Shown in pieces: positions 53,595 through 57,492 of a stretch of DNA of 64,000 nucleotides (positions within the stretch are counted from its first letter, which is position 1; the number at the start of each line of letters is the position of its first letter). The position numbers were made by a program, and so were the translations under genes. The notes below the pieces were generated by a model. It did no database searches. It saw nothing but the letters and a program-made list of their open reading frames with translations, and was not told the DNA's origin. Origin of the DNA: an uncultured Siphonobacter sp. (lineage in GTDB: Bacteria; Bacteroidota; Bacteroidia; Cytophagales; Spirosomataceae); the NCBI GenBank assembly GCA_913775095.1, contig CAJYIW010000004.1:1-64000 (forward strand), given 5' to 3'.

Positions 53595-54212
53595 TTACTG
53601 GAAAGATTCGTATAACGTAATGACTCCAATCAGAATCGAGAAAAACCCGACTACGTAATTGATCATAACCAGAGCTTTCTGAGCTCGCTGGACGACCTGA
53701 TTGAGGGAAAACGCAAAAATGCAGCCGTATAAAGTCATGGCGGCAATGATACCCAAGCTCTGCAAAACAATGATCCAGACGGCCGTAGAGGCATCTTTAG
53801 CCGCCAGGGTCAAGGCCACGGTGCAGGCTCCGCCCGTTCCGGCCAGTCCGTGAATCATGCCCACGCCGAAGGAGCGGCTGAGTCGGGCTTCTTCGGCGGT
53901 CTGTACGGGAGCGGCCCGGAAATTCCGGCGGATGGCTACTACGCCCAACCAGATCATTAATGGCCCGACGAGAAATTCCACGTACGAGGCCACTTCTTCC
54001 GAAATGCGGGATTTCAGCAACAGGATCAGGCAGGCAAACAGAATCAGGGTGAACGAATGCCCCAGAGCCCAGTGCGAAGACCGCCAGATGACTTTCCAGA
54101 GCTGACCTTTCTTTTTTTCACTGGCCAGTACTGAAACAGCGGCCATGTGATCCGGTTCAAACGAATGCTGGATGCCTAACACCAGTGAATCAAGCAATAA
54201 AGGATTAATCAT
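53595..54212 (-). CDS. NiCoT/NicO-like nickel or cobalt transporter
   Basis: A 205-residue inner-membrane protein with about six hydrophobic helices. The metal-binding signature HX4DH (HSFEPDH, residues 16-22) in helix 1 is the hallmark of nickel/cobalt permeases, and the family GLAGTGGACT segment is in a later helix. It is the first gene after the minus-strand cobalamin riboswitch, which strongly favours cobalt. The ATG at 54212 is the only sensible start. Urease or hydrogenase genes are not seen nearby, so a nickel role is less likely. Confidence 0.86.
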   Translation of the reverse strand: MINPLLLDSLVLGIQHSFEPDHMAAVSVLASEKKKGQLWKVIWRSSHWALGHSFTLILFACLILLLKSRISEEVASYVEFLVGPLMIWLGVVAIRRNFRAAPVQTAEEARLSRSFGVGMIHGLAGTGGACTVALTLAAKDASTAVWIIVLQSLGIIAAMTLYGCIFAFSLNQVVQRAQKALVMINYVVGFFSILIGVITLYESFQ

Positions 54213-54317
54213 ACTATTTCCCTTTTTAGTGTGTACACGGGAAACAGGAACAGAGGCAAAACCTCTTAAGCGTGAAGCCCCCTGCCTTTCTTCCCGAAAG
54301 CATGAATGGTATGTTCA

Positions 54318-54568
54318 ACAGGCAGGTCTTCTGGCTCTTTCCACTCCCAAACGCCTTCCCCCAGCACGCTGAAGTGGCTTTAGTTGTTTGGAGTTTGGGA
54401 GTTTGGGGTTGGGCGTTTAGAGTTATAACGTTTAAAGTTCGTTTATAAACTCTAAACCCTTAACTCAAAACAATCAACTAAACTCTCCGGAAATTACAGC
54501 AGCGGGTACTGCTCCGGTTTTGCACCGGATTCCCTTTTAAGCCTCTTCTGACGGGCAGAACAGGCACC
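54318..54568 (-). promoter_or_regulatory. Cobalamin riboswitch controlling transporter/receptor operon
   Basis: Read on the minus strand, the 5' part has GGTGCCTGTTCTGCC, a GGGAATCCGGTGCAAAACCGG P4-P5-type core, then CCCGCTGCTGTAA. The 3' part has AGCCACTTC, GGGGGAAGGCG and GCCAGAAGACCTGCC, in the order of the class I B12 element. It ends 106 bases before the transporter start. Binding of adenosyl- or related cobalamin should turn the operon off (known for the class). A long palindromic insertion at 54380-54482 lies in its variable region. Confidence 0.9.
54380..54482 (-). repeat. Imperfect palindromic insert in the minus-strand riboswitch
   Basis: A ~100-base imperfect palindrome sits between the conserved CTGTAA and AGCCAC parts. 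Its arms are built from degenerate 7-base units of the ACYCnAA type, clearly related to those at 54786-54865. The pairing here is weaker, with spacer bases, than in the second copy. Confidence 0.75.
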
Positions 54569-54578
54569 AATTGAGCCG

Positions 54579-54586
54579 CGAAAGTA
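54579..54586 (-). promoter_or_regulatory. TAnnTTCG -7-like box of the minus-strand riboswitch transcript
   Basis: Read on the minus strand TACTTTCG (54586 to 54579) lies just ahead of the riboswitch 5' end. It differs by one base from TAnnTTTG. A start about 7 bases downstream would begin the transcript right at the riboswitch. Confidence 0.5.
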
Positions 54587-54663
54587 CGACTATTTTTAAC
54601 GTTCAGGCTTCCATTCAGAAATTTATTATGGATCCTATCCTTATGAATGGCTGAATTATACCC

Positions 54664-54671
54664 TATTTTTG
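54664..54671 (+). promoter_or_regulatory. TAnnTTTG -7 box of the plus-strand riboswitch transcript
   Basis: TATTTTTG matches the Bacteroidota -7 consensus exactly and lies about 40 bases before the conserved part of the riboswitch. It is divergent from the box at 54579-54586; about 80 bp separates them. Confidence 0.55.
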
Positions 54672-54711
54672 CGGCTTCATTCAAGTTCTTTACTTCATTT
54701 TTCCTACGGAA

Positions 54712-54952
54712 TAAGGTTCTGCTTTAGGGCAGATTAATAGGGAATCGTGTGTAACTCACGAACTGTCGTGCAACTGTAAGTTCCAGTTGGGTTTTGAGTT
54801 TGGAGTTTTGAGTTTAGGGTTAATTTGTTAACTCTAAACCCAAAACTCCAAACCCAAAACCCAACCACTCTCCGGCAACAAAGCCACTGTATCGGTACGG
54901 TATGGGAAGGCGTCTGGGAGGGAATGAGTCAGGAGACCTGCCTTTTTCTTAG
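54712..54952 (+). promoter_or_regulatory. Cobalamin riboswitch controlling TonB receptor/PepSY/cob genes
   Basis: GGGAATCGTGTGTAACTCACG, then GTCGTGCAACTGTAA form the conserved 5' core. AAGCCACTG, ATGGGAAGGCG and GAGTCAGGAGACCTGCC form the 3' part, all in the class I order. It lies 173 bases ahead of the receptor's ATG. The palindrome at 54786-54865 occupies its variable region. Cobalamin should repress the downstream uptake and biosynthesis genes. Confidence 0.92.
54786..54865 (+). repeat. 36-bp palindromic insert in the plus-strand riboswitch
   Basis: Arms 54786-54821 and 54830-54865 pair at 33 of 36 positions plus one G-U, with two A-C mismatches and an 8-base loop. The second arm resolves into five near-identical 7-base units (ACTCTAA, ACCCAAA, ACTCCAA, ACCCAAA, ACCCAAC). 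Confidence 0.9.
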
Positions 54953-55099
54953 CTGATCATGCTTTCACGGACTAGAGCGTCGTCAAAAGGGATTTTTGTA
55001 TAGATACAGGCATAAGTATGTCTATACGTTTGTGTCTATACGTAAAATTCTCTGACTTCTTTCTTCTCCTGAATGCGGACTGGCGGAAATTAAGCCAAG

Positions 55100-55125
55100 A
55101 ACTTTTAACACAACCGTTAAAAGTT
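55100..55125 (+). promoter_or_regulatory. Hairpin abutting the receptor start codon
   Basis: A 9-bp perfect stem (55100-55108 with 55117-55125) has an 8-base loop and its last base immediately precedes the ATG at 55126. It would occupy the ribosome-binding region, so it could serve as the expression platform for the upstream riboswitch or an independent translational lock. Confidence 0.5.
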
Positions 55126-57492
55126 ATGCTCCCCACTTCTACTTCACGATTGAGTAGTAAACCCGTTTTCTATACCCTTTTATTCATGCTTGGCTTTTGG
55201 CTCAGCAGCGTTGCCCAGCAAAAAAACGGCTCGATTGAAGGTCGCATCGAAACCGAAGAACAGGAACCCTTACCCGGCATTTCCATTCGTCTGGAGTCTA
55301 CTTCGTTCGGCGTAACTACGGATGCCGATGGTGCTTTCAGGTTGCGGGAGGTTCCGGCGGGTGCTTATACGCTGAGGGTTAGCGGCGTCGGTTATGAAGC
55401 TCGTCAGGTTCAGGTAGCCGTGAAAGCCGGCGAACGTCTGTTGCTGCATTACCAGCTTAATCAGAAAACACAGGAGCTTTCGCTGGTAACGATTACCAGT
55501 CAGCGGAACCGCTCGTTTTCAGCGATCAACAAAATCGACGTTCCGGTTCGGGACCTGCCCTTATCGACGAGTTCCGTCACTTCGAAAACCATCGAGCAAC
55601 GCGGCATGGATGATCTGGGCGATGCCATGAAAAACACCACGGGCGTACGTTCGAATAATACCTACGGTGGGTTTCAGCATTTTACCATTCGGGGTTTCAG
55701 TAACTTCGTGTTACTGGTGGATGGCGTTCGTGATGAGCGGCATAACATTTCCACGAGTGCTCCGAACACCAATCTGGCGAACGTCGAGCGGATTGAAGTA
55801 TTGAAAGGTCCTGCCTCCGTACTCTTTGGTCACTCGGCGTTGGGCGGCATCATCAACATCGTTCGCAAGCAACCCACTGCCGATTTCAAAGCGAATTTTT
55901 CGGCCAGTTACGGCAGTTTTAACACCCGGCGGATGCGGGCCGGAGCGGGTGGTTCGATCAGCTCCAAACTTCGCTATCGCCTGGATTTCGGCGTGTCGAA
56001 TACCGACGGTTTTCGGCAGGCGGGCATTGCGACTAATAATGCGTACGTGGCGTTGGAATACACGCCGACCAGTAAAGATTACTTCCTGCTGTCGATTGGA
56101 GCCAATAAAGATATGTATCGCACGGACTCAGGTATCCCCGTTCTGGCGGGCGGTGCCCTCGTTCCCGGTATGGACATTACCACTCGTTACAACGATCCCG
56201 CTGATTTCCTCAAACACAGCCGGGCGGATTTTCAGCTTCGGTACGTGCGGGAGTTCAGTGAGCATCTCAAGCTTTCGAACCAGCTTTCGTATTCGGATGA
56301 TAACATCGATTATTTTTCCACGGAAGAGCTGACGCTCAATTCCCGGCTGGATTCCATTACGCGTTCCTTTCCCTATTACTTCAATCACCTGACCAAACCC
56401 CTGCAAAATCAGCTGGAATTAACCTACGACTGGACTCAGGGTAAGGTTTCGCAAAAAGTTCTGTTGGGGTATTCATTAAGTTATCTGGACCGAAAGACGT
56501 ACAACGGGAACATTTTCGGTCCCGGCAAAAATGCGAAAATTCCGGTAATCCATCCAATTGAAAATCAGGGCTATATCAGTTATTACGATACCTTCTACCG
56601 GGCCACGGATGAAACTGTTCACGGCATTTATCTACAGGATTTTATTCGCTTTTCCGATAAAATCAAGGCCCTGGCTGGACTCCGTTACGATTTTTTTAAA
56701 GGGAATTATTACACGGATCAGGTCGATAAAGATCGTAACATAACCAGCTATGGTTCTACATCCACTATCGCTCGAAACGCATTAACTTATCGGTTAGGTC
56801 TGGTGTATCAACCGATTGAACCCTTATCTCTATACGCTTCTTATTCTACGTACTTTAAACCTTCCCGCCGTGTAGCTCCGAACGGCGAAACTTTCGATCC
56901 GGAGACGGGGTATCAGGCGGAAGTCGGTTCGCGGTTCGAGCTTTCATCCCGGTTTTCGGCGAATGCCTCGATTTACTACATGCGGAAGGATCATCAGGTG
57001 GAAAGTCTGCCCGGCGGTGTTTTCAAACGCGTAGGTTCAGCGGAATCCAAAGGTTTTGAAGTGGAAGCTCAGGGCAATCCGGTAAGCGGACTGGATCTGA
57101 CCGCTGGTTATACGTTCACGCAGGCGAAATACCTGCCCTTCGCCAGTGCGGAAGTAAACCCGGTAGCCGGAAAAACCGCCGTGCTCGCTCCCAAACATAT
57201 GGTGAATGCCTGGGTAAATTACACGATTCAGCACAAGTTCCTGAAAGGATTAAACGCCGGAGCGGGCTTTAATTTTCAGAGTGATGCTTTCGCTAACTCG
57301 GCCAACACCTACCAGTTACCTGCGTATAAAACCGTGGACGTAGCCCTGGGCTACCAGATCAGCCGGGTGGGACTTCGAGCGAATGTGAATAATCTTCTGA
57401 ACGAACGTTACTTCACGAACGTCATCTTAACCCGGCAGTTTTACCCCGGAGCTACCCGCAATTACCTGCTTACCATCAGTTACCAACTCTAA
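55126..57492 (+). CDS. Siderophore-type TonB-dependent receptor with CPDR domain
   Basis: A 788-residue receptor. The ATG at 55126 gives a proper signal peptide ending near SSVAQQ (residue 31); an ATG at 55018 would put 36 unrelated residues in front. A carboxypeptidase-regulatory-like domain (about 35-115) precedes the siderophore-type plug: DLPLSTSSVTSKTIEQRGM, HFTIRGFSNFVLLVDGVRD, IEVLKGPASVLFG and GGIINIVRKQP. The barrel ends NYLLTISYQL. This FhuA/FecA-like class commonly takes iron complexes, yet the gene lies under a cobalamin riboswitch and leads a cob operon, so a cobalt complex, corrinoid or metallophore is plausible. Substrate unproven. Confidence 0.88.
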   Translation: MLPTSTSRLSSKPVFYTLLFMLGFWLSSVAQQKNGSIEGRIETEEQEPLPGISIRLESTSFGVTTDADGAFRLREVPAGAYTLRVSGVGYEARQVQVAVKAGERLLLHYQLNQKTQELSLVTITSQRNRSFSAINKIDVPVRDLPLSTSSVTSKTIEQRGMDDLGDAMKNTTGVRSNNTYGGFQHFTIRGFSNFVLLVDGVRDERHNISTSAPNTNLANVERIEVLKGPASVLFGHSALGGIINIVRKQPTADFKANFSASYGSFNTRRMRAGAGGSISSKLRYRLDFGVSNTDGFRQAGIATNNAYVALEYTPTSKDYFLLSIGANKDMYRTDSGIPVLAGGALVPGMDITTRYNDPADFLKHSRADFQLRYVREFSEHLKLSNQLSYSDDNIDYFSTEELTLNSRLDSITRSFPYYFNHLTKPLQNQLELTYDWTQGKVSQKVLLGYSLSYLDRKTYNGNIFGPGKNAKIPVIHPIENQGYISYYDTFYRATDETVHGIYLQDFIRFSDKIKALAGLRYDFFKGNYYTDQVDKDRNITSYGSTSTIARNALTYRLGLVYQPIEPLSLYASYSTYFKPSRRVAPNGETFDPETGYQAEVGSRFELSSRFSANASIYYMRKDHQVESLPGGVFKRVGSAESKGFEVEAQGNPVSGLDLTAGYTFTQAKYLPFASAEVNPVAGKTAVLAPKHMVNAWVNYTIQHKFLKGLNAGAGFNFQSDAFANSANTYQLPAYKTVDVALGYQISRVGLRANVNNLLNERYFTNVILTRQFYPGATRNYLLTISYQL

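Follow-up and report, generated by a model that had tools for sequence, protein, structure and literature searches.

Heptad-repeat hairpins of a dispersed Siphonobacter palindrome family as putative extra helices at one junction of cobalamin riboswitches

Introduction

The STRR sequences of cyanobacterial RNase P RNA are said to be 7-mers by which helix P12 is extended and which show no relation between closely allied strains. Heterocystous cyanobacteria have been described as having heptanucleotide STRR in their RNase P RNA (Vioque 1997, NAR 25:3471; via PMC2858038), and P12 is dispensable in cyanobacteria (PMC2858038). Direct repeats of the heptamer TAACTGA occur in Beggiatoaceae, Cyanobacteria and five Bacteroidetes (MacGregor 2015, PMC4679880), heptameric repeats with GGGAATC G-quadruplex-type units are present in Xanthomonas and Nostoc (PMC4692102), and a pneumococcal BOX element lies between two T-box riboswitches that the authors think still function (PMC3049150). 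Repeats in structured RNAs are already known in kind (cyanobacterial RNase P RNA, BOX/T-box, heptamer arrays).

Here we describe hairpins of 7-base units inside cobalamin riboswitches of Siphonobacter, for which the cyanobacterial STRR are the nearest precedent. Both are short tandem repeats inside a structured RNA, the Siphonobacter 7-mers being also dispersed over the genome, but the inserts described here occur in another phylum, in another RNA and with another unit. Since the nearest named relatives of the host are Siphonobacter and not heterocystous cyanobacteria, the inserts are likened to STRR and not filed as STRR. The TAACTGA repeats are similar in forming intergenic 7-mer arrays, and their complement TCAGTTA, when rotated, gives CAGTTAT, which differs from CAGTTTT by one base; however, they are direct repeats (a single indirect case was noted in the genome mainly examined, in which the majority closely precede start codons), and the word 'riboswitch' occurs 0 times in the available text of that paper (PMC4679880). 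The pneumococcal BOX resembles the inserts in being a dispersed repeat that forms a composite RNA together with riboswitches, but in the text available it is one case, placed between two riboswitches and not within an aptamer (PMC3049150). The Xanthomonas and Nostoc heptamers are intergenic, partly inverted and variable in length and sequence between close relatives, but differ by their G-quadruplex-type units, with no riboswitch link in the text consulted (PMC4692102). A literature search of partial coverage returned no repeat inserts within cobalamin riboswitches, no Siphonobacter palindromes of this kind and no exchangeable repeat hairpin within a riboswitch aptamer.

Results

The two riboswitches of the window and their inserts

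The window, i.e., the whole stretch of 64,000 nucleotides analysed, belongs to genome G000. It contains a pair of divergent cobalamin riboswitches, as a sequence-only reading of this DNA had proposed, and both exceed the Rfam gathering score; each carries an insert:

54304..54586, minus strand: cobalamin riboswitch 1 (RF00174), 76.2 bits against the Rfam gathering cut-off of 31.5
54697..54959, plus strand: cobalamin riboswitch 2 (RF00174), 72.0 bits against the Rfam gathering cut-off of 31.5
54379..54482, minus strand: heptad-repeat insert 1, GTTTWG dialect, imperfect hairpin, z -4.1
54786..54865, plus strand: heptad-repeat insert 2, GTTTWG dialect, 36-bp hairpin with 4-nt loop, z -11.2

Near the 3' end of both riboswitches, and matched in the covariance-model alignment, is the sequence AGYCAGRAGACCTGCC, which we take to be the B12 box. 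Riboswitch 1 is the leader of a HupE/UreJ-like membrane gene (53595-54212, minus strand) and riboswitch 2 that of a TonB-dependent receptor gene (55018-57492, plus strand), downstream of which lie a PepSY_TM and a CobB/CobQ-type gene; Pfam assigned the neighbouring genes to HupE/UreJ_2, TonB-dependent receptors and CobB/CobQ-like amidotransferase. The HupE/UreJ_2 gene probably encodes a metal transporter, as suggested by its family, and its protein is 93% identical to that of a Siphonobacter MAG and 91% to that of Siphonobacter sp. SORGH_AS_0500. The HupE/UreJ_2, TonB-dependent receptor and CobB/CobQ-type genes of the neighbourhood would fit control by vitamin B12. The Rfam alignments of 54697-54959 and 54304-54586 pass over or drop some of the P8-P9 region, and the inserts stand unaligned in them.

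Long palindromes between CTGTAA and AGCCAC, with arms of 7-base units, had been noticed in both riboswitches, one of them with a near-perfect 36-bp stem, and the palindromes, their flanks and the units were found as described, the stem being that of insert 2. In sequence, its arms are 38 nt long and 92% complementary around a 4-nt loop, and its RNA forms 36 pairs, with a folding energy of -49.9 kcal/mol (z -11.2, 0/200 shuffles equal). In insert 1, the outer 12-nt arms are 92% and an inner stretch of 24 nt is 79% complementary; the fold reaches -24.9 kcal/mol (z -4.1, 0/200 shuffles equal), the frequency of the minimum free energy structure is 0.0043 and the centroid is a different structure. 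The hairpin of insert 1 is real and far less perfect than that of insert 2. The further claim that the two inserts are clearly related holds for the common unit and not beyond it: they match at 44.6 bits (76% over 66 nt) with a longest identical run of 12 nt, whereas more than 10 other places match insert 2 at 74 to 45.5 bits in a 744-kb sample of the genome. Given this short run and the better genome matches, the window inserts are members of one family and not a recent local duplicate of each other, and local duplication between them was rejected.

A heptad palindrome family in Siphonobacter

The unit is a 7-mer, GTTTWSR on the 5' arm and its complement on the 3' arm, repeated in tandem and degenerate. 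The search for further copies that the sequence-only reading had suggested found many, both with insert 2 as query and with a strict pattern. With insert 2, 99 matches were obtained in the genome it comes from (140 candidates, of which 40 were scored), many of them on both strands at one place, and insert 1 was absent among them. The strict palindrome pattern (GTTTWSAGTT, 2-30 bases, complement) had 38 matches in G000 and 8-49 in each of the six genomes of the genus, overlapping matches inside one element being counted apiece, compared with 0 in the same six genomes for the backwards pattern that served as control. Among 294 other Bacteroidia genomes the strict pattern had 0-2 matches (10/295 genomes with any, G000 included), and since the backwards control also gave 1-2 in some of the 294, these counts are background. 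The palindrome family is typical of Siphonobacter and lineage-specific.

A detector run over 13% of the G000 genome (744 kb, made up of the window and 34 stretches of 20 kb) found 13 heptad palindromes, 10 of which lie outside riboswitches; it missed riboswitch 1 of the window, the arms of which are gapped. The GTTT arm came first in 13/13, and at most a tenth of the palindromes lay inside ORFs by a rough ORF rule. Among the periods 3-11 tried, 7 was strongest in 19 of the 22 left halves for which a period was obtained (two gave 5, one 8; L087 was skipped). As regards the criteria for MITEs, the outer edges are ragged and the loops vary, and a common inner arm edge, GTT/AAC with or without A (GTT/GTTA versus AAC/TAAC), was counted by eye in 16/22 elements; no clean empty site with target duplication was found in the genomes compared. 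Five Y1_Tnp matches were obtained, none of them with GTTTWSR-type tandems within ~1.5 kb, and a REP/RAYT origin was rejected on this ground. For a plasmid or phage source, there was a single match in a cyanobacterial plasmid record, a 36-base stretch of a Kovacikia minuta plasmid (NZ_CP083583.1:883281-883316) sharing 92% identity with the heptad arm of insert 2, and no phage match.

A fixed insertion site at the P8/P9 junction

The six genomes of the genus contain 31 cobalamin riboswitches, and a heptad hairpin is present at the same junction in 23 of them (by eye on parsed segments; L087 was classed by eye, and L218 and L088 were retrieved and parsed separately from other loci). Orthologous riboswitches had related inserts at the same site. 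The eight riboswitches without insert are L064, L069 and the orthologue group L002, L076, L078, L079, L084 and L085. The insert is located after CTGTAA (CTGTAT or CTGTGA in three) plus about five bases, and before (G/A/T)CCAC. The helices concerned are P8 and P9, and in the window they comprise the following strands:

54489..54493, minus strand: P8 5' strand of riboswitch 1 (UUUCC), immediately 5' of insert 1, 5/5 pairs with 54338-54342
54338..54342, minus strand: P8 3' strand of riboswitch 1 (GGAAA), pairing with 54489-54493
54393..54401, minus strand: P9 5' strand of riboswitch 1 (CUCCCAAAC), hand assignment
54344..54352, minus strand: P9 3' strand of riboswitch 1 (GUUUGGGAG), hand assignment
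54780..54784, plus strand: P8 5' strand of riboswitch 2 (GUUCC), 5/5 pairs with 54921-54925
54921..54925, plus strand: P8 3' strand of riboswitch 2 (GGAAU), pairing with 54780-54784
54868..54876, plus strand: P9 5' strand of riboswitch 2 (CUCUCCGGC), directly 3' of insert 2, hand assignment, complementarity by eye to 54912-54920
54912..54920, plus strand: P9 3' strand of riboswitch 2 (GUCUGGGAG), hand assignment

The five bases before the insert pair with the five bases before the B12 box, which is the helix termed P8. All five pairs are possible in 29/31 riboswitches, compared with 201/806 mixtures across orthologue groups, the exceptions being L069 (without insert) and L087 (with insert). 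A P9 helix after the insert is possible at -10 kcal/mol or better in 30/31 versus 356/806 mixtures when a stretch of 32 nt, which overlaps the insert arm, is searched, and at -8 kcal/mol or better in 30/31 versus 393/806 when 20 nt are searched; the evidence for P9 is weaker than that for P8. As P8 pairing is kept around the insert and P9 is able to close after it, the insert is best seen as a putative extra helix at the P8/P9 junction. In riboswitch 1, the P9 5' strand (54393-54401) is heptad-like and lies within the 3' arm of insert 1, so that alternative registers can compete, and since the palindrome as delimited by the sequence-only reading overlaps this P9-capable strand, the boundary of insert 1 is not clean there. 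For P9 of riboswitch 2 the best computed duplex has another register than the hand assignment.

At the insertion site of five of the riboswitches without insert (L002, L076, L078, L084 and L085) there is a short hairpin of the GTTTC...GAAAC type. Such a hairpin could be a seed for heptad growth.

Cobalamin riboswitches compared with other structured RNAs

By length, none of the 13 TPP riboswitches of the genus (all 95-99 nt, two of them just under the family cut-off) and none of the six RNase P RNAs over the cut-off (395-406 nt; one further weak match had 20.4 bits, below the cut-off) contains an insert. With shared ancestry ignored, Fisher tests gave p 4e-6 for cobalamin versus TPP riboswitches and p 1e-7 for cobalamin versus TPP riboswitches plus RNase P RNAs. 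In G000, inserts occur in 4/5 cobalamin riboswitches where the density outside would predict ~0.11 (P 5e-6); with detector hits alone, the figure is 3/5 (P 2e-4). The enrichment in cobalamin riboswitches, the events of which are not independent, exceeds blind tolerance unless riboswitches duplicate together with their inserts. Such duplication would explain part of it, and selection or a local seed hairpin could explain the remainder.

Two dialects and one replaced insert

The riboswitch inserts are written in two dialects of the unit, GTTTWG (n=15) and GTTTWC (n=8). In one pair of G002/G004 orthologues (orthology being taken as colinear by place), the flanks are identical at 148/153 and 136/138 positions (97-99%) and the insert region at 54/101 (53%), with the dialect switched, whereas three other orthologous insert regions of these genomes are identical at 80/85, 91/97 and 100/102 positions. 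This one case indicates replacement of a whole insert within an otherwise unchanged riboswitch. The dialects of riboswitch 1 of the window and riboswitch 1 of SORGH_AS_0500 also differ.

Inserts in other lineages

A survey of 150 genomes with RF00174 gave at least 150 matches, 146 of those listed being from outside Siphonobacter; among these best-scoring matches listed, a choice that disfavours long ones, 130/146 were shorter than 240 nt and 16/146 had 240 nt or more. Eleven of the 16 long matches listed fall among the 31 rows of genus g32, which we take to be Dyadobacter. Twenty stretches were read, most of them selected for length. GAATGA-type palindromes were seen by eye in 8/12 g32 riboswitches read (most chosen for length), and at the same place 3/12 had a hairpin of other make-up and 1/12 none. 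The place is the terminal hairpin between CACTG and CGGGAAGG, another loop than in Siphonobacter. In g31 (2/3) and g36 (1/1), terminal hairpins with CAGT-type units were seen by eye. A strict GAATGANT palindrome had 1-9 matches in 9/16 g32 genomes and 0 in G000, and two of its eight matches in G077 (six places) are the two riboswitches of that genome. Since the g32 unit is unrelated and occupies another loop, repeats have colonised cobalamin riboswitches at least two times, at two sites and with unrelated units.

The GAATGANT palindromes are dispersed over G036, G077, G087, G134 and other g32 genomes, cobalamin riboswitches included. Long terminal hairpins were also observed in cobalamin riboswitches of three further genera, with units of the CAGTAAA/CAGTTAT type in L224 and of the CAGTCCG type in L225 and L232; those of L226 were left unclassified.

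Discussion

The comparisons establish the palindrome family, its fixed site in the riboswitch, the conserved P8 pairing and one replacement. The reading that we prefer, with a probability of roughly two in three, is that self-folding repeats of the family repeatedly entered the P8/P9 junction, were turned over there and were tolerated as an extra helix. Sequences of the dispersed palindromes would repeatedly enter this one peripheral junction, and the inserted RNA would fold back on itself as an extra helix, with P8, and probably P9, still able to pair. We infer that the insert folds by itself, leaves this pairing intact and is tolerated for that reason. A resident cassette could be exchanged as a whole for another member of the family, including one of the other dialect. 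Spread may proceed by slippage and fold-back template switching, or by recombination with other copies; the long arrays at some contig ends, in which one dialect is followed by the other in sharp blocks, point to slippage or block copying. The sequence-only reading had offered a mobile palindromic repeat that landed twice in tolerated loops. A repeat family in tolerated loops is well supported by the genome copies, the inserts of orthologues and the one replacement, but 'two landings' falls short of the 23/31 riboswitches that carry inserts; genome copies and related inserts in orthologous riboswitches, the joint absence of which it had named as evidence to the contrary, are both present.

It is possible, if somewhat unlikely, that there was one ancestral insertion, followed by duplication of whole riboswitches and then by drift, or by gene conversion from one riboswitch to its neighbour. 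This would explain why the carriers share an insertion site, and on a core tree computed with the inserts removed, presence and absence need only two changes. The divergent riboswitch pair of G003 has an identical insert stretch of 33 nt, which suggests local copying; such copying may occur, but it does not explain the window, where no identical run in the pair exceeds 12 bases and copies elsewhere in the genome resemble insert 2 more closely. A single insertion also sits poorly with the replacement of a whole cassette by one of the other dialect between near-identical orthologues, and with the g32 (Dyadobacter) inserts, which lie elsewhere and have another unit. On the best core tree there are eight label changes with three labels, six of them between the two dialects; good support is found for 10/28 inner branches, which by themselves require fewer changes, at least five for GTTTWG and at least four for GTTTWC, each versus the rest.

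The fixed site and the strong enrichment keep a shared structural add-on alive as a rival, which we nevertheless consider unlikely. The extra helix would be selected, its pairing and not its sequence would matter, and repeats would be recruited as a ready hairpin, for example for holding a peripheral domain, for slowing or pausing RNA polymerase or for protecting the leader. Such domestication would account for the high occupancy (23/31) of one site and for the long hairpins of other units, in another cobalamin-riboswitch loop, in other genera; however, 8/31 riboswitches have no insert, including an orthologue group found in 6/6 genomes and two riboswitches of G001, and the 130/146 listed matches outside Siphonobacter that are short (best-scoring matches, long ones being disfavoured) also speak against it. 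The pairing of the arms argues in both directions. Own GTTTWG arms (n=12) give more stable pairing than chimeras within that dialect (-32.4 versus -28.0 kcal/mol, permutation p 0.003), as expected of a selected helix, whereas the excess is not significant for GTTTWC arms (n=6, -31.2 versus -29.1 kcal/mol, p 0.16). This test comprised 18/23 inserts (12/15 GTTTWG, 6/8 GTTTWC), without L071, L077, L218 and L073, which are near-copies of orthologues, and without the unparsed L087. Chimeric arms pair almost as well as own arms, so pairing is largely built into the unit; extra coupling of the arms is found in single inserts, e.g., L005 and L004. Arm coupling in the genome-wide palindromes was set aside as biased, because these elements are found by their pairing, and inserts bordered by riboswitch sequence were used instead. 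A direct folding test, with the insert removed or shuffled in silico, was suggestive of a core fold left intact by the palindrome but did not show it clearly: the riboswitch core folded better with its insert than with a shuffled insert in 14/22 cases (Wilcoxon p 0.07), in minimum free energy folds without pseudoknots, with hairpin boundaries that sometimes swallow P8 pairs, and with L069, which has no heptad insert, omitted.

Extended to other genera, selection of the helix would mean that peripheral junctions are a recurrent docking place at which lineages convergently domesticate their own palindromic repeats as an exchangeable, selected helix, a view that seems doubtful to us on present comparisons. 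That the hairpins are intrinsic terminators or parts of the expression platform is highly improbable and was rejected, for they are long, stable hairpins in untranslated leaders but lie within the aptamer, before the B12 box and with no U-tract after them, and the frequent bidirectional, A/T-flanked terminator-like hairpins elsewhere in the sampled genome look different by eye.

Repeated entry and exchange of family repeats at this junction would amount to a natural exchange experiment, in which close species carry entirely different helices at one junction of the same riboswitch, so that both the need for the helix and the tolerance to it are directly testable. The inserts illustrate how structured RNAs can grow through repeat families, and for what reason some of the sequence of such members is passed over by a covariance model. 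Should the helix be under selection, the convergent recruitment of repeat families into a single riboswitch class would be unusual.

Six contig ends of the window genome (L273-L278) carry tandem (GTTTTSA)n arrays of ~100-145 bases, at which the assembly breaks. Both dialects occur in four of the six (L275-L278), mostly in blocks, and several of these contig ends adjoin a second dispersed repeat with 79 matches in the genome.
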